Assembly: GCF_000374405.1 (NCBI RefSeq) | Contig: NZ_KB894262.1 | Span: 62,001-126,000, forward strand | Length of the DNA stretch: 64,000 nt | Origin: Riemerella columbina DSM 16469 | GTDB taxonomy: Bacteria; Bacteroidota; Bacteroidia; Flavobacteriales; Weeksellaceae | Reading direction: 5' to 3' | Shown here: in pieces, positions 39,471 through 48,058 of the stretch | Position numbering within the stretch: position 1 is the stretch's first letter | Layout of the letters: each line of letters opens with the position of its first letter | The notes under the pieces: generated by a model | The model's input: the letters and a program-made list of their open reading frames with translations, nothing else | Told to the model about the DNA's origin: nothing | The model's database searches: none | Program-made: the position numbers and the translations under genes

Positions 39471-39511
39471 AACAAGCCTTGCTTAAAATTTTAAGCAAGG
39501 CTTGTTGTTTT
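39471..39511 (+). terminator. Intrinsic terminator after sucB
   Basis: A perfect 36-nt palindrome, AACAAGCCTTGCTTAAAA and its complement (39471-39506), followed by GTTTTTATT. Ends 2 bp before the riboswitch promoter. Confidence 0.9.
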
Positions 39512-39513
39512 TA

Positions 39514-39544
39514 TTGTTCATATAACTTAAAAAAATTATATTTG
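39514..39544 (+). promoter_or_regulatory. Promoter of the TPP-riboswitch cassette
   Basis: TTG at 39514-39516, a 20-nt spacer and TATATTTG at 39537-39544: both Bacteroidota boxes at consensus distance. Transcription should start near 39549-39551, at the foot of the riboswitch. Confidence 0.65.
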
Positions 39545-39552
39545 TACCACAA

Positions 39553-39625
39553 ACATCGGGGTGCCAATTTATGGCTGAGAATATACCCGTTAACTTGAAC
39601 CGGATAATGCCGGCGTAAGGAATGT
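39553..39625 (+). promoter_or_regulatory. TPP riboswitch (THI element)
   Basis: All conserved blocks of the thi-box are present in order: CGGGGTGCC at 39557-39565, GGCTGAGA at 39573-39580, ATACCCG at 39583-39589, TTGAACCGGATAATGCCGGC at 39595-39614, and GTAAGGAA at 39615-39622. P1 closes with ACAT / ATGT (39553-39556, 39622-39625). The aptamer binds thiamine diphosphate and represses. No terminator hairpin with T tract lies between it and the ATG at 39681, so control is probably by alternative pairing or access to the start. A segment at 39653-39659 (CGGTTCA) is complementary to 39596-39602 in the aptamer. Confidence 0.93.
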
Positions 39626-39680
39626 AGTACTTTCTCTATCAAGGGACACTTTCGGTTCAGTTACTTAAAATTATAGCATT

Positions 39681-40406
39681 ATGAGTGATGAACTGATTAA
39701 AAAAGACTCCGAGTCCTTAGTACAAACAGAAGTCCGTTCGTGGCAGGGCAGAAAAGAATGGTTTTTCAACCGAAAATATACCGATACTTACGAAGACTAT
39801 TACGAAGGTCCGTACAAACGAGCTGAGCAAGAGCAGAAAAAGGTAATGAAAGATTTGATTACCAAAGATGTTCGCATTCAAGAAATATTAGAATACGGCT
39901 GTGGTACAACTCGCTTTACGCGTTGGTGGAAAGAAATTGGCATTGATGCTACGGGAACGGATATTTCTCCTTTTATGCTGTCACAAGCATTGTATTTGTT
40001 TGGTGGGAATTTGGCAATGGCGGATTCCCATTTTATGCCTTACAAAAATGATACTTTTGATGCCGTGGTATTTATGAATACTTTCGAGTATTATCAAAAT
40101 CCGAAGCAGGTATTGCAAGAAGCCGCTCGTGTAGCACGCCACGGAATAGCAATGGGAATGATGAATAAAATCACTCCTAAATTCATCCGAAGACGCGTTC
40201 AGCAGACTTTTGGAAGGAATGAGTTTTATCGTACCGCTACTTTCTATACGCCCAATTCCTTAAAAAAGTTGATAAAAGAAGCCTTGCCCGATAGGAAATA
40301 CAAAATATCGTGGAAGATGACAGGTTTGCCCTCTTGGTTTCCTGTAAAAGAATGGCAACAATCTTATGGTGATTTTTTCGGAATGTATATCCAATTTGAG
40401 GACTGA
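39681..40406 (+). CDS. SAM-dependent methyltransferase, first gene of TPP-riboswitch cassette
   Basis: 241 residues. Rossmann motifs: EILEYGCGTTRFTRWWKEIG (motif I) near 72, GTDISPFMLSQAL near 96, FDAVVFMNTFEYYQNPKQVL near 130, then VLQEAARVARHGIAMGMMNK. An N-terminal segment rich in Tyr, Trp and charged residues (NRKYTDTYEDYYEG) precedes it. UbiE/COQ5-like type. The stop codon overlaps the next ATG (TGATG). The small Trm112-like protein encoded three genes on could be its partner, as Trm112 is for other methyltransferases; that is inference. Substrate unknown; regulation by TPP suggests thiamine-related chemistry. Confidence 0.85.
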   Translation: MSDELIKKDSESLVQTEVRSWQGRKEWFFNRKYTDTYEDYYEGPYKRAEQEQKKVMKDLITKDVRIQEILEYGCGTTRFTRWWKEIGIDATGTDISPFMLSQALYLFGGNLAMADSHFMPYKNDTFDAVVFMNTFEYYQNPKQVLQEAARVARHGIAMGMMNKITPKFIRRRVQQTFGRNEFYRTATFYTPNSLKKLIKEALPDRKYKISWKMTGLPSWFPVKEWQQSYGDFFGMYIQFED

Positions 40407-41461
40407 TGAAAGACGGAAAGATAGGTGCCGAAGGCTTTAAGCGATTGTTTCAAGGTCGATTTGGTAGTGAATGCCCAGAGCAATTGGTTGCTCCAGGGTT
40501 TGGAAAAGATATCTCTTTGGTTGATTTGGGCAATTCGCAAGCCATGGCAATGGCGAGTGACCCTTTGTCATATATACCAAGTTTGGGAGCGAAAAAATCA
40601 GCAGAATTATCTGTTTATTTGGTGGCTAATGATATGGCTACTACGGGTGTGATGCCTCAATATTTTCAGATGGTGCTGAATCTCAATGAAGATTTTACAG
40701 AATCTCTTTTTGAAGAATATTGGAGCCATTTACATCAGATTTGTCAGCAACTCAATATCAGTATCACGGGTGGGCATACGGGTGTAATTCCGATGCAGAA
40801 TACTACCATAATGGGAGGAGGTACGATGATAGCTGTTGCTCCTACCGACCATTTCATCCGACCCGATGGCGTACAAGAAGGCGATGTCTTATTGATGTCT
40901 AAGAAAGCTGCCATATCTTCTACGGCTATTTTAGGGTTGCATTTTAAGGAAACCGCTCATAATTTGTTAGGTGATGAAAGCAGTTCTTACTTGGAAGAAT
41001 TATTTAACCAAATTTCTGTGATAAAAGAAGGTGAATTGGCAGGAAAATATCATCAGCAATCCTCAGAAAAACCCATCCACGCGATGCACGATGTTACCGA
41101 GGGAGGCATTCTGGGTGCCGTATACGAAATGGCTCAGGCAAACCAAAAGGGCGTTGTTGTACATACGGAAAAAATACCTTTGGATAGCAATCAACGATTG
41201 ATTTGTGACCAGTTTCAGCTGAACCCTTTGGGAATTATCGGAGCAGGAAGTATGCTAATAGCGGTTGACCCCAAGGCGGTAGAGGATTTGATTTCGTATT
41301 ATCAGTCTAACGGAATTGATTTGACAGAAATAGGAGTTTTTACCTCATCAAATATGGATTCTATTCTGAAGAATAGTAAGGGCGAACAAAAATTTACTCC
41401 CAAAGAAAAAGACCCTTATTGGGAAGCCTTTTTTACAGCATATCAAAACGGTTGGAAATGA
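40406..41461 (+). CDS. HypE/AIR-synthase/ThiL-superfamily ATP-dependent enzyme
   Basis: 351 residues with the PurM/HypE/ThiL two-domain fold. PGFGKDISLVDL near 29 and MASDPLSYIPSLGAKKSAEL near 49 form the N-domain, with ANDMATTGVMPQYF near 75. A GGHTGVIP loop follows near 120, then HDVTEGGILGAVYEMA near 225 and NPLGIIGAGSMLIAV near 272. ThiL phosphorylates thiamine phosphate to TPP; HypE and AIR synthase make other phosphoryl intermediates. It resembles HypE-like proteins of archaea more than canonical ThiL (no GDD repeat). With a ThiE-like gene next to it under a TPP riboswitch, a kinase role near thiamine phosphate is plausible but unproven. Confidence 0.8.
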   Translation: MKDGKIGAEGFKRLFQGRFGSECPEQLVAPGFGKDISLVDLGNSQAMAMASDPLSYIPSLGAKKSAELSVYLVANDMATTGVMPQYFQMVLNLNEDFTESLFEEYWSHLHQICQQLNISITGGHTGVIPMQNTTIMGGGTMIAVAPTDHFIRPDGVQEGDVLLMSKKAAISSTAILGLHFKETAHNLLGDESSSYLEELFNQISVIKEGELAGKYHQQSSEKPIHAMHDVTEGGILGAVYEMAQANQKGVVVHTEKIPLDSNQRLICDQFQLNPLGIIGAGSMLIAVDPKAVEDLISYYQSNGIDLTEIGVFTSSNMDSILKNSKGEQKFTPKEKDPYWEAFFTAYQNGWK

Positions 41462-42045
41462 TGAAGAAGCAAATTTATTTAATAATAGATGCTGAAATTC
41501 CTTTGGAAGAATTACAACAACAATTGAATTCGGTGTTGCCATTCATATCAAAAGTGCAATTGTATCATACAAAAAAAATCGATACAGACTCCTTGAAAAA
41601 TCTAATCTATTGGCTTACTTCAAACTGCAAATCTTGTTGGGTGTATGAAGACAAAGAGGCCTTGAAATGGCATCCACATTTGGGTATTCATTTGGATGAG
41701 GTGGAAGATATATCCGAGTTGGAAAAAACTTTGCAACGAGTTATTCCTAAGGGTGTTACTGTGGGAAATGATTTGGAAAAACTAAAAAAAGCTGAAGCAT
41801 TGGGCTATGATTATATTTCTTTTTGTTCGGTATTCCCAACTACTTCAGCAGCAGTTTGTGAGTTGGTCAATTTTGAAAAAATATCCCAAGCGAGGTCTTT
41901 GTTTTCAAGAGAAATCTTCTTGGCAGGAGGTATCAACGAATCGACTCAACCTCAATTGGAAGGTTTGGACTATGATGGTATCGCCGTGATTTCCGCTTTG
42001 ATGGATGCTAAAAATCCTTTAGAAACTTTACAAAAATTACAATAA
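41458..42045 (+). CDS. ThiE/TenI-like TIM-barrel protein with altered active-site residues
   Basis: 195 residues from the ATGA overlap at 41458. The ThiE/TenI outline is clear: KVQLYHTKKIDTDSLKN, LGIHLDEVEDISEL, ALGYDYISFCSVFPTTSAA, EIFLAGGINES, and DGIAVISALM. In thiamine phosphate synthase the corresponding segments read VQLREK, ND, DGVHLGQEDL and FPTxTK; here the Arg-Glu and the last Lys are missing. So the pyrophosphate site looks changed. It may catalyse a related aromatisation or coupling, or be a TenI-like tautomerase. Last base overlaps the next ATG (TAATG). Confidence 0.78.
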   Translation: MMKKQIYLIIDAEIPLEELQQQLNSVLPFISKVQLYHTKKIDTDSLKNLIYWLTSNCKSCWVYEDKEALKWHPHLGIHLDEVEDISELEKTLQRVIPKGVTVGNDLEKLKKAEALGYDYISFCSVFPTTSAAVCELVNFEKISQARSLFSREIFLAGGINESTQPQLEGLDYDGIAVISALMDAKNPLETLQKLQ

Positions 42046-42332
42046 TGGAAAAAAGAATTATCGACAAAATGTGTTGTCCGTTTGACAAAAACGATTTGCA
42101 TCTCACAATCTTTAGAGAAGAAAAAGATGTGGTGGTAGAAGGCATTATGCTGTGTACGAAATGTGCTCGCTATTATCCTATCATTTCGGGTATTCCTATT
42201 ATGTCCCCTGATGAGTTTCGAGAGTTGGGCTATGAGCGACCTTTTTTAGAAAAATGGCAAGACCATTTACCCAAACAATTATCACAAAATGAGGTATTTC
42301 GAATCGAAATGCGAAACACCTCTAAACATTGA
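42045..42332 (+). CDS. Trm112-like zinc-ribbon protein
   Basis: 95 residues. DKMCCPFDKNDLHL near 8 and MLCTKCARYYPIISGIPIMSPDE near 36 are the Trm112/UPF0434 pattern (CP.. then C.xC..YPI..GIP.M). Trm112 activates methyltransferases in eukaryotes and archaea by binding them. The cassette starts with a methyltransferase, so a heterodimer is a natural guess. Overlaps the ThiE-like stop by 1 bp. Converges with the aldo/keto reductase (3-bp gap). Confidence 0.85.
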   Translation: MEKRIIDKMCCPFDKNDLHLTIFREEKDVVVEGIMLCTKCARYYPIISGIPIMSPDEFRELGYERPFLEKWQDHLPKQLSQNEVFRIEMRNTSKH

Positions 42333-44289: not shown

Positions 44290-45057
44290 TTATAAATCTT
44301 TTTTTCTAAACTTGATTAAACTAAGTAAAAATGGAATAGCAACCCAAATAATGAGGATAAAAACAGAGGCTAAAATACCATTACCCGTTCCAAAGATTTC
44401 TTTAAATATAGCGCCCGAATATCCTAGCATACTGGAAATATCAAGCTCTAGTTGAACAAAAATTCTGGTTAACCCAATAGGACTTAATGCCGATAAAACC
44501 ACCATTAATTTCTCAATAGGATAGTCCGAAAACTGGAACATCATCATTAATAAAATTCCATCGTAGATAATGTTGAAAAATATCCATATAAAAATGGCAA
44601 TGCCTATTCCTTTGGCTCTGTCTTTACTAGAAATGGCAGCTAACATTGCTAAGGCTACAAAATCTATGGTGAGGAGCGTACCTCCAATGAGTATGGATAA
44701 GCCATATTCTAAGGAAGAATAAATTAAAATCGGTAAACCGCAACCTACTAAGAATGCCAAAACTTGGGAACCGAAAAGTCCAATAAAAATTCCAGTCCAA
44801 ATGACATTTCTATGAATGGGCTGTGTAGATAATAATTCTATAAACTGGCTACTATTATAAATGTAAATTATTGAAAATAATAGACTTAATAACGGAACTA
44901 CAAATAGAATGATATTCAATAAATTCAAATTAGCTTTAGCTTGATTTGCCTCTAGTCCCAATACAGACCAAGAAATAATGAAAAGCAAAGCGGTGTATAC
45001 TAAAATAACTTTATTTTTGAGAATATCGGTAAAAATAAATTGAGCAATTTTAAGCAT
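44290..45057 (-). CDS. nosY: ABC transporter permease NosY
   Basis: 255 residues, six membrane helices (about 12-32, 45-66, 94-116, 130-145, 158-180, 225-245) with ABC-2 permease character (FIELLSTQPIHRNVIWTGIF). In N2O reductase clusters NosY forms the NosFY transporter that works with NosD in maturing the CuZ centre. Overlaps nosF by 8 bp. Last gene of the minus-strand nos run. Confidence 0.9.
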   Translation of the reverse strand: MLKIAQFIFTDILKNKVILVYTALLFIISWSVLGLEANQAKANLNLLNIILFVVPLLSLLFSIIYIYNSSQFIELLSTQPIHRNVIWTGIFIGLFGSQVLAFLVGCGLPILIYSSLEYGLSILIGGTLLTIDFVALAMLAAISSKDRAKGIGIAIFIWIFFNIIYDGILLMMMFQFSDYPIEKLMVVLSALSPIGLTRIFVQLELDISSMLGYSGAIFKEIFGTGNGILASVFILIIWVAIPFLLSLIKFRKKDL

Positions 45058-45763
45058 GTTGAAGTTGTTTTAAAATACTGGTAATGGCTTGAGAGATTTT
45101 TTCTTCTTGCGTTTGAGCTTTTAGGGCTTCTACATCTTGGTGGAACATCACTTTCCCGTCTGATAGAAACACTACCTCGTTGATGATATCGTCCAACTCA
45201 CTTAATAAATGAGAAGTAATGATGATGAGTTTTCCTTTTTTTCTTTCTTTTATGATTTTCTTTTTAAGAATTTCTGATGCCAACGGGTCTAGCCCTGCCG
45301 TAGGTTCATCTAGAATGATGATATTGGGATTAAACATAAAGGCAATCACGGCACTTACCTTTTGAATGGTTCCCCCAGAAAGGCTTCCCATTTTTTTCTG
45401 ATACAAATCTTGGATATGGTATTGCTCGAAAAGTTCCATATCCCGCTCGCCTTTATACGCTCGATTTTTTATAATCATATCCAGCGTTTCTTGTACCGTC
45501 ATATTTTCAGGATATTTTCCAAACTGAGGCATATAGCCAATATCTTCTCGGTAGAGGTAGTCTTCTGCCACATCTTTTTGGTTGACGAAAATATGCCCTG
45601 CATCGATGGTATTGAGTCCTAGAATACTTTTAATTAAAGTCGTTTTACCACAGCCATTCGGTCCGATAAAGGCAATGGATTTGCCTTGTTTGCATTCCAT
45701 ATTAATATCGTGCAATGCGGTAAACTTTCCAAATTTTTTTGTTAAGTGTTGTATAGCAATCAT
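45050..45763 (-). CDS. nosF: ABC transporter ATP-binding protein NosF
   Basis: 237 residues. Walker A GPNGCGKTTLIKSIL near 35, signature LSGGTIQKVSAVIAF near 128, Walker B IIILDEPTAGLDPLASE near 149, switch His in ITSHLLSEL. Partner of NosY and NosD. Start lies 12 bp after nosD. Confidence 0.92.
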   Translation of the reverse strand: MIAIQHLTKKFGKFTALHDINMECKQGKSIAFIGPNGCGKTTLIKSILGLNTIDAGHIFVNQKDVAEDYLYREDIGYMPQFGKYPENMTVQETLDMIIKNRAYKGERDMELFEQYHIQDLYQKKMGSLSGGTIQKVSAVIAFMFNPNIIILDEPTAGLDPLASEILKKKIIKERKKGKLIIITSHLLSELDDIINEVVFLSDGKVMFHQDVEALKAQTQEEKISQAITSILKQLQHA

Positions 45764-45775
45764 AAGTGTATCAAA

Positions 45776-47020
45776 TTAAATCCTATTGGGTTTCATGGCA
45801 GGTTGTTCATCCACAAAAGTGTCGGGAGTAAGGGTGGGCATCAGTTTTTCGGAACGGTTGATAAGTTCCACAAAGAATGTCCCAAACAGTATCATAATCA
45901 TTGGGGTTTGTTCGGCTAATACGGCATAGAGACTTAGCGGATAAAATGGAATATCGCCTATGCCATCTTTATTCAGGTCGTAGCCTTCGTATTTATCCCA
46001 ATAGTTGTGTTTAAAAGTGTTGAGAAATACCGTTCCGCTGGTGCTGACATCAAAGATATTATCTATAAAATTATTATTAATCATCTTGTTTTCAATGCAA
46101 TTGGCATTGATTTTAAAACCCCAACCATTATTTTTAAATTGATTATCATAGAAGTCTACTTTGGAAGAACCATCCATAAAAACTCCCGTAGAATTATTAC
46201 TAAAGTCATTATGGCTTACGGTACTAAAAGTTAAATCTTTCAATAACAAACCATAGATATTGTCGCCCCAGTTGTCTAAAAATCGGTTGTATTTCATCTG
46301 TACATTGCGGCTATACATTACGGCGACTCCCGCTTCATTATTTTTAAAGACATTTCCCGTATACACATTATTATGAGAAAACATAAAGTGAAGTCCGTAG
46401 CGTTTATTTTTCTGAGATTTATTTTTGTACACAAAAGTATTATTGGCTTTTTCTAGATAGATGCCGTCTTTATGCCCTTCTATAAAGTTGTTTTTAATCC
46501 AAATATCCGAGCTAGACCATACATGGATGCCATCGCCAATCAGTTCTTGGGAAGTTCCTCGATTGGTGGTAATGCGGTTGTTTTGGATTAAACATTGGTA
46601 ACCCCTCTGAATGGTAATTCCGAAATAATTATTATCAAAAATATTATTTTTAATCGTTGAAAAATGACTATCATAGAGGCGTACAGCACCGATATTCCTT
46701 ATTTCATCTTTACCAGAATTAATGATTTTAAAGCCTTCTAAAGTAATGTGATTTGCTCTGAGGGAAACAATTTCGTGTTTCATTTCGCCATCTAGAATGG
46801 GGCGGTCTATTCCTATCAAAGTAATAGGCTTGTCAAGGTTAATATTGCCTTCTTTGTAATGACCACCATAGACCAAAATGGTATCGCCACTCTGAGCTTT
46901 TTTCAGAGCAGCGTGAATGGTCTTAAATGTTTTATGATGTCCTACCGAATATGTTGTTGCTGGGATATTGAGCGCCATTAAAATTCCTATTCCGCATAAC
47001 CATTGTTTCAATCCAGTCAT
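45776..47020 (-). CDS. nosD: Periplasmic copper-binding/CuZ maturation protein NosD
   Basis: 414 residues. Signal peptide (MTGLKQWLCGIGILMALNIP), then a right-handed beta-helix of pectate-lyase type with repeated NN and ITLEGF, NNYFGI, GDGIHVWSS, FVYKNKSQKNKRYGLHFMFS patterns. A C-terminal helix (ILFGTFFVELINRSEK) follows. NosD delivers or assembles the sulfur/copper CuZ cluster with NosFY. Normal family length. Confidence 0.93.
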   Translation of the reverse strand: MTGLKQWLCGIGILMALNIPATTYSVGHHKTFKTIHAALKKAQSGDTILVYGGHYKEGNINLDKPITLIGIDRPILDGEMKHEIVSLRANHITLEGFKIINSGKDEIRNIGAVRLYDSHFSTIKNNIFDNNYFGITIQRGYQCLIQNNRITTNRGTSQELIGDGIHVWSSSDIWIKNNFIEGHKDGIYLEKANNTFVYKNKSQKNKRYGLHFMFSHNNVYTGNVFKNNEAGVAVMYSRNVQMKYNRFLDNWGDNIYGLLLKDLTFSTVSHNDFSNNSTGVFMDGSSKVDFYDNQFKNNGWGFKINANCIENKMINNNFIDNIFDVSTSGTVFLNTFKHNYWDKYEGYDLNKDGIGDIPFYPLSLYAVLAEQTPMIMILFGTFFVELINRSEKLMPTLTPDTFVDEQPAMKPNRI

Positions 47021-47064
47021 TTTTAGTTGAGTATTGTTTAAATTGATATTAAAATAGATTGGGA

Positions 47065-47481
47065 TTAATTGATAAGTTCAGCATTAAGTTTTTTAGCCTC
47101 GTTGATGGCTTCTTCTTTGTTTTTAAAAGTAGCGATATTCCCATTCATAGGGCTCTTTACTTCCCCGCCAGTTACTTTAGTAGCTTGTTCGATAGGAAAT
47201 AACTCGTGTGTCAAGAAATCAGGGACATAAAGCTGGGCTTGGTCTGCCTTGTCTTGATTTTCATCTACAAAAGATTCCATACAACTCAGGTCATCAAATT
47301 TATAGACTCTTCCTTTAGAGGTAAGGAGTTCGGTGCCATATTTAGGATTTTCAATCATCATTTTGCAATGTGAACATTGGTCTTTTCCAAAATTAATCGG
47401 CTCTACTTCTTTTTTGCCACAAGATACTAAGGCTAATGATAGGGCGCTAATGCCTAATACTTTAGAGATAAGATGTTTCAT
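47065..47481 (-). CDS. nosL: NosL copper chaperone lipoprotein
   Basis: 138 residues. Lipoprotein signal (ISALSLALVSCGKKE, Cys21). Metal site QCSHCKMMIENPKYGTELL near 36 with the C-x2-C-x-M pattern, then KFDDLSCMESF. NosL carries Cu(I) to NosZ. Located 44 bp before nosD. Confidence 0.9.
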   Translation of the reverse strand: MKHLISKVLGISALSLALVSCGKKEVEPINFGKDQCSHCKMMIENPKYGTELLTSKGRVYKFDDLSCMESFVDENQDKADQAQLYVPDFLTHELFPIEQATKVTGGEVKSPMNGNIATFKNKEEAINEAKKLNAELIN

Positions 47482-47485
47482 TGTT

Positions 47486-48058
47486 TTAATGTTTTTTAAA
47501 TTCGTAAATTGATGTTATAAATAATAAAATACCGACACCAAACATAATCCATCCACCAATGTCTGGATAAGAATAGGCTCCAAAATTAAGCAATTGTTTA
47601 AATCCAATAAGTGGGGGTTGGTAGGTCATTCCAGGGACAACTATCGCCGCATTGGGATCTAGGTTGTGTCCATAATCGTATTCCCATAAGTAGAAATCTA
47701 CCATAAATCCAATTCCAAATAATAAGAAAAGAATACAGAATACATAAATCCCTACTTTTTTTCTATACCACGCCACAAAAAAGGCAATGGCAGAAAACAG
47801 TCCAAGTACATAAGGCAATACTTTAAACTCCCAAAAGTCTTCTTGATGGATTTCTTTCATACCGATATAATGGTTTAGCCCATTAATAATTTTGTAATCT
47901 CCAGAAATTTTATTGGTATGAAGAAACATAGACAGCCCCTCTGGATATTGTGGTGCTTCTAAATAGATTGCCCATAAGGGTACAAAATGACACACTAATA
48001 ACCCTAAGCCACAAATGACTAGGATGATGATTGATGTTTTGGATAGTGTACGGTTCAT
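47486..48058 (-). CDS. nos-cluster membrane protein (NosB-like position)
   Basis: 190 residues. Four membrane helices (about 8-28, 82-100, 106-124, 165-184) and a first loop of about 50 residues with MFLHTNKISGDYKIINGLNH. I do not recognise a family from motifs. Its place between nosZ and nosL recalls the nosB slot of clade-II clusters such as that of Wolinella, but no homology is claimed. Start is 4 bp after the nosL ATG region; a strong hairpin separates it from nosZ. Its Trp, His and Tyr content in loops could serve heme or copper binding. Confidence 0.65.
   Translation of the reverse strand: MNRTLSKTSIIILVICGLGLLVCHFVPLWAIYLEAPQYPEGLSMFLHTNKISGDYKIINGLNHYIGMKEIHQEDFWEFKVLPYVLGLFSAIAFFVAWYRKKVGIYVFCILFLLFGIGFMVDFYLWEYDYGHNLDPNAAIVVPGMTYQPPLIGFKQLLNFGAYSYPDIGGWIMFGVGILLFITSIYEFKKH

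Follow-up and report, generated by a model that had tools for sequence, protein, structure and literature searches.

Thiamine operons described in Bacteroidetes, namely thiSEGCHF-tenI, OMthi and pnuT-tnr3, are controlled by thiamine pyrophosphate (TPP) riboswitches (excerpts of PMC5613172). Here, we describe a four-gene cassette from the same phylum that also follows a TPP riboswitch. It is carried by a 64,000-nucleotide stretch of Riemerella columbina DSM 16469 (contig NZ_KB894262.1, positions 62,001 to 126,000), hereafter the window; coordinates are counted from its first nucleotide. The cassette encodes a methyltransferase, an enzyme of the aminoimidazole ribonucleotide (AIR) synthase superfamily, a ThiE/TenI-fold barrel and a Trm112-like ribbon protein. 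Its gene set is different from those of the described operons, its hosts are mostly different, and the methyltransferase, AIR-synthase-like (AIRS) and Trm112 genes are not named in the excerpts of that survey (PMC5613172). No thiC, thiG, thiE, thiD or thiH is found within the cassette, which is thus not a canonical thiamine operon.

We propose that the cassette is a horizontally mobile, TPP-repressed module of four enzymes, part of a non-classical route that would feed a thiamine-phosphate intermediate to ThiL. We give this reading a rough probability of 0.45, slightly short of even odds. Within it, the most likely function is that a thiamine-related compound is imported and then salvaged or rebuilt to give the thiamine-phosphate intermediate; we infer the chemistry.

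The cassette is conserved behind a TPP riboswitch

The riboswitch aptamer (RF00059) lies on the forward strand at 39547-39638. It matched the covariance model with 70 bits (gathering score 54.3, E 1e-11) over the whole model, 1-105, and was the sole Rfam match in the window. The complete THI-box aptamer proposed by an earlier, sequence-only reading of this DNA is therefore real. Four genes follow on the same strand: a class I S-adenosylmethionine methyltransferase of 241 residues (39681-40406; Methyltransf_11, 59.9 bits, 3.9e-16), the AIRS protein of 351 residues (40406-41461; Pfam AIRS 41.4 bits and AIRS_C 69.6 bits, both above cut-off), the ThiE/TenI-fold barrel of 194 residues (41461-42045; Pfam TMP-TENI 53.9 bits), for which an alternative ATG is possible at 41458, and a Trm112-like zinc-ribbon protein of 95 residues, the putative partner of the methyltransferase (42045-42332; Pfam Trm112p 23.2 bits, cut-off 22). 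As the sequence-only reading had stated, the genes are joined by overlaps of 1-4 bp and the four identities (methyltransferase, HypE/AIRS/ThiL-like enzyme, ThiE-like barrel, Trm112-like ribbon) agree with Pfam.

A profile search with the methyltransferase in a named genome collection gave 162 relatives, the best 80 of which were kept; by their titles, these 80 all belong to Bacteroidota. Among them, 77 loci had enough flanking sequence to hold the cassette. The four genes were present in the same order at 77/77 loci, with median junctions of 0, -4 and -4 bases. Flanking genes were unrelated between these loci, and even the most widely common ones were confined to one genus. A chance operon specific to one strain was therefore rejected. 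The TPP riboswitch was found directly upstream of the cassette in 42 of 44 further genomes (one below the gathering score), that is 43/45 with the window's own genome, riboswitch and cassette positions being matched by eye. The gene order that the sequence-only reading had picked out behind a THI box thus recurs across Bacteroidota.

Close pairs showed purifying selection on all four genes, with ratios of nonsynonymous to synonymous substitution rates of 0.015-0.056 for the methyltransferase and 0.02-0.24 for the other three. The methyltransferase is the slowest-evolving member (61-86% identity to 36 relatives). In a tree built from methyltransferase and AIRS sequences, the window's cassette clusters with those of genome G033 and Cruoricaptor (support 1.0), whereas three genomes of its own genus (G001, G003, G004) cluster with Aquirufa (support 0.995); further pairings cross families and orders. 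Horizontal transfer is the best explanation of this discordance with taxonomy, and the cassette appears to move as a unit. Among 72,556 plasmids, no barrel homologue was found, the methyltransferase matches were distant only, and the surroundings of three of these distant plasmid methyltransferases held no cassette. On the Peptoclostridium acidaminophilum plasmid NZ_CP007453.1 (338862-347260, L241), a distant methyltransferase relative overlaps a gene annotated as a YkoF-family thiamine/HMP-binding protein (HMP, hydroxymethylpyrimidine).

The barrel has lost the HMP pyrophosphate site

The model of the window's barrel had a mean predicted local distance difference test score (pLDDT) of 94.9, and its top Foldseek matches were TenI and ThiE. 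The best fold match was TenI with carboxythiazole phosphate (3QH2), with a query-normalised TM-score (TMq) of 0.76-0.79. The barrel scores 49 bits as compared to a curated thiE cut-off of 145. In order to compare residues, 26 cassette barrels were aligned with ThiE sequences, that of B. subtilis among them; the second half of this B. subtilis reference agrees with the aligned PDB chains. In the B. subtilis enzyme, HMP pyrophosphate is bound by an Arg and a Lys of the first loop and by the PTxTK loop. In the barrels, the Arg is replaced by Trp (Tyr or Phe in three members) and the Lys by Asn, His or another residue. The loop reads CSxFPSxTxxSC, the Lys of its TK being gone in 26/26 barrels as compared to its retention in most canonical ThiE. 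C122 and C133 are invariant in the cassette barrels. The phosphate-binding GGI and ISG motifs of the C-terminal part are retained. In this alignment to ThiE, the histidine column, AHT in ThiE, reads CNNDL or similar in the barrels. The changed active site noticed in the window's barrel by the sequence-only reading is shared by 36 relatives. In a tree, the cassette barrels form a clade of their own on a long branch (0.98), with a support of just 0.57. With these substitutions at the HMP pyrophosphate site, the barrel is, to judge from its sequence, not an ordinary thiamine monophosphate (TMP) synthase.

The AIR-synthase-superfamily enzyme is neither ThiL nor HypE

In profile comparisons, the nearest neighbour of the AIRS protein was HypE, followed by ThiL and SelD. 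The curated cut-offs of HypE (82.8 of 251.6 bits) and ThiL (58.9 of 184 bits) were not reached. Its invariant motifs are FGxD, SDP, ND, GGHT, MHDxTEGG and a C-terminal DPYW; the C-terminus reads DPYWxAF...GWK and has no Cys. Since the cut-offs are not reached and hallmark residues are absent, the AIRS protein is by these measures neither ThiL nor HypE, yet within the superfamily it looks like an active enzyme.

These results bear on the simplest alternative, an ordinary TMP synthase and an ordinary TMP kinase next to two unrelated genes by chance, which the sequence-only reading had named as its own refutation. Pfam and NCBIfam indeed label the barrel TMP-TENI (PF02581) or thiE in 37/37 members, and ThiL is a secondary match of the AIRS protein. 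However, all four genes occur in 77/77 loci, the scores are 49 of 145 bits (thiE) and 59 of 184 bits (thiL), the HMP pyrophosphate residues are gone and a true ThiL is encoded elsewhere in the genome. An ordinary ThiE/ThiL operon was rejected on the curated cut-offs, the residues and the conservation of all four genes, and we regard this explanation as hardly credible. The sequence-only reading was right to set the cassette apart from textbook thiamine operons.

The closeness of the AIRS protein to HypE rather than ThiL would also suit a cassette with a product other than thiamine that, at low TPP, relieves or takes over a TPP-dependent function. A precedent is the control of B12-independent isozymes by B12 riboswitches, and riboswitch control suits any function useful at low TPP. 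Against this, all profile and fold tests place the barrel in the ThiE/TenI family, and no cassette protein looks like an isozyme of an enzyme that depends on TPP. We consider it distinctly improbable.

The methyltransferase and the ribbon protein are a plausible pair

The ribbon protein matches the Trm112 chains of two solved complexes, 6ZXW and 6F5Z. Its cysteines C10, C11, C37 and C40 are invariant in 85 sequences. Pfam Trm112p is just above cut-off, and the NCBIfam Trm112_arch cut-off is not reached (62 of 77 bits). The methyltransferase matches Trm112-bound Hvo_0019 (6F5Z) both by profile and by fold, at ranks 5 and 7 with the model; as this model is moderate (pLDDT 71), the fold matches are merely supportive. 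Methyltransferases not known to need Trm112 match the cassette protein equally well or better. From these matches and models, a heterodimer of the methyltransferase and the Trm112-like ribbon, as the sequence-only reading had proposed, is plausible.

Thiamine genes of the carriers

Thiamine genes were searched with profiles, on which all the absences given here rest, in 45 distinct carrier genomes including the window's own. In the latter, no ThiC, no real ThiG, no canonical ThiE and no ThiD-family match was found, and the cassette barrel is its sole TMP-TENI protein. Its true ThiL (L040) scores 312 bits as compared to the curated cut-off of 184. ThiL is above cut-off in 45/45 carriers, ThiC and ThiG are present in the same 3/45 (G033, G451, G470), and 39/45 have no further TMP-TENI protein above cut-off. 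Among 396 genomes sampled across the phylum, ThiC was found in 0/13 cassette carriers as compared to 138/383 others (p about 0.004 under an assumption of independent genomes that does not hold). Within genus g20, one genome has the cassette and no ThiC, whereas five have ThiC and no cassette. This genus is Chryseobacterium, because G333 and C. defluvii have identical cassettes. Mutual exclusion of cassette and ThiC is suggestive only, and we do not take it as proof. Carriers that can be cultured include Pedobacter sp. Leaf176 (L154) and Chryseobacterium sp. Leaf394 (L137).

The remaining TPP riboswitches of the carriers precede TonB receptors, PnuT and a TPK-like gene, whose name is a reading of the sequence as no profile matched the protein. 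To judge from these riboswitch-controlled receptors and transporters, the carriers appear to import thiamine-type compounds. The second TPP riboswitch of the window's genome (G000:C7:44810-44900; L002, L039, L238) is weaker, with 34 bits, and precedes a lone OMR1-type TonB-dependent receptor, ribosomal protein genes being next. Overall, the module occurs mostly in apparent importers of thiamine-type compounds that have no ThiC, no ThiG and no normal ThiE.

This host pattern raises the question of an alternative de novo route, in which the cassette would replace ThiC, ThiD, ThiG and ThiE for one thiamine moiety or for TMP. AIRS-superfamily enzymes catalyse ATP-dependent ring closure, PurM being an example; the AIRS protein would close a ring in the same way and the methyltransferase would add a methyl group. 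The scarcity of ThiC and ThiG among carriers, the 0/13 count and the replacement seen in Chryseobacterium agree with such a route. On the other hand, four proteins would be a small number for an entire pathway, the carriers keep riboswitch-controlled uptake of thiamine-type compounds and the barrel has no HMP pyrophosphate site. Moreover, among 35 leaf isolates, 21/21 thiamine prototrophs had ThiC and ThiG and ThiC was found in just 7% of the 14 auxotrophs (PMC9666465), so that ThiC-less isolates were auxotrophic with hardly an exception. As the prototrophs are the holders of ThiC and ThiG, this speaks against a complete de novo synthesis where ThiC is missing; such strains would seldom make thiamine from scratch, an argument that extends to cassette carriers only if some were among these isolates. 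We regard the de novo route as unlikely.

Two further observations concern the neighbourhoods of the other riboswitches. In seven carriers (G471, G463, G453, G473, G455, G454 and G375; loci L214, L217, L218, L221, L230, L231 and L235, respectively), PnuT lies near a second TPP riboswitch and is directly followed by a gene for a flavoprotein resembling monooxygenases of the HpaB/DszC/HsaA type. Such a pairing of transporter and monooxygenase under riboswitch control seems to be undescribed, and a thiamine analogue taken up by the cell may be its substrate. In Pedobacter and Mucilaginibacter carriers (L216, L217), a different TMP-TENI variant, in which the usual Lys is also gone, lies near a TonB receptor behind another riboswitch; at the Pedobacter locus a TPK-like gene comes after it.

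The cassette could alternatively detoxify or repair a thiamine analogue or damaged thiamine (an antivitamin, an oxidised or a methylated form), with no net gain of precursor. A methyltransferase and an ATP-dependent enzyme working on a thiamine-type ligand fit repair, and the monooxygenase-like gene behind PnuT in the seven carriers suggests chemistry on an imported analogue. Release of thiamine antivitamins by bacteria in nature is reported in PMC12345177. Nevertheless, a detoxification cassette does not require repression by TPP, and no analogue was identified. This makes detoxification or repair quite unlikely in our view.

A possible route to a thiamine-phosphate intermediate

The sequence-only reading had suggested that the cassette may make, salvage or modify a thiamine-like compound, and the salvage or rebuilding reading can be put in the form of a possible route. 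The methyltransferase and Trm112-like protein, as a heterodimer, would alkylate an imported or damaged thiamine-related heterocycle, and the AIRS-family enzyme would phosphorylate or activate it with ATP. The barrel would keep the phosphate pocket used for thiazole phosphate, and its two invariant cysteines, in place of the pyrophosphate site, could form or exchange the pyrimidine-thiazole bond or remodel the phosphorylated compound. The imported compound would thereby yield a thiamine-phosphate intermediate without HMP pyrophosphate; ThiL would then make TPP, which would shut the riboswitch. The proposal also has a more specific form, which we consider doubtful: a new route to thiamine phosphate, for which the heterodimer and the AIRS protein would prepare the substrates and a ThiE relative that depends on cysteines and not on pyrophosphate would join the two thiamine rings or exchange them.

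Several points weigh against the salvage module as proposed. Two Lewinella-type genomes have the cassette and no detected riboswitch. The three carriers with ThiC and ThiG possess a full thi operon besides the cassette. Two cassette-less relatives (G002, G005) also possess ThiL, so ThiL alone does not tie the cassette to TMP. ThiC occurs in just 27/172 genera of the phylum sample; as most genera are devoid of it anyway, allowing for relatedness leaves just a weak association between the cassette and the loss of ThiC. Finally, we can only conjecture the reaction steps, their order and what the cysteines do.

Transcription signals and neighbouring genes

The upstream sucAB unit ends with a strong intrinsic terminator at 39471-39506 (+), a 16-pair stem followed by a T run. 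As it lies between sucB and the cassette, the latter would form its own transcription unit. A promoter-like site, TTG-N20-TATATTTG, is present at 39514-39544 (+). The sequence-only reading had noted a consensus promoter here, and the sequence fits the Bacteroidota consensus, but the pattern occurs at 2 sites across the window as compared to 1.8 expected by chance; because of this chance-level count, the promoter is merely plausible. The minimum-free-energy fold of 39546-39710 predicts a hairpin at 39652-39697 (+) that pairs the region of the first start codon. This possible expression platform would fit translational control. Further along, ORF translations at 45050-48058 (-) resemble accessory proteins of nitrous oxide reductase (nos), namely NosD-like, NosF-like ABC ATPase and NosL-like proteins.

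Significance and comparison with known systems

No earlier description of the cassette was found in the full text of open-licence papers, most subscription journals and preprints being outside that scope, and it is not mentioned in the excerpts of two surveys of Bacteroidetes and of riboswitches; its novelty is thus provisional. By gene content, many Bacteroidota (162 methyltransferase relatives in one scan) would mostly score as plain thiamine auxotrophs, yet they hold a conserved, TPP-controlled set of enzymes. Should the cassette prove to salvage or rebuild thiamine, vitamin dependence would be predicted differently for communities of soil, fresh water and the sea and for those associated with animals. 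Two points would be new to biochemistry, namely a relative of TMP synthase that works with cysteines and a Trm112 partner that acts in metabolism and not in translation.

The H. volcanii Trm112-Hvo_0019 complex (6F5Z) is matched by the ribbon and the methyltransferase, respectively; the cassette pair differs from known Trm112 partnerships by its operon linkage and TPP control. As for HypE, ThiL, SelD and PurM, the cassette AIRS protein has both AIRS domains and keeps most acidic positions common with ThiL, while staying below all curated cut-offs. It reads FGxDxS and GGHT where ThiL has GDDAA and GGDT, and it has a conserved DPYW tail where HypE has its C-terminal cysteine.

The barrel has the fold, the Pfam family and the C-terminal GGI/ISG phosphate motifs of ThiE, and a TPP riboswitch is likewise common to both. 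In contrast to ThiE, with its Arg, Lys and PTxTK for HMP pyrophosphate, it adds two invariant cysteines, forms its own clade and falls below the thiE cut-off. The thiazole tautomerase TenI is its best structural match (3QH2) and does not need the HMP pyrophosphate site. However, TenI shares only 16-18% identity with the barrel, the AHT histidine region is not kept by the barrel in the alignment to ThiE, and 42/45 carrier genomes have no ThiG.

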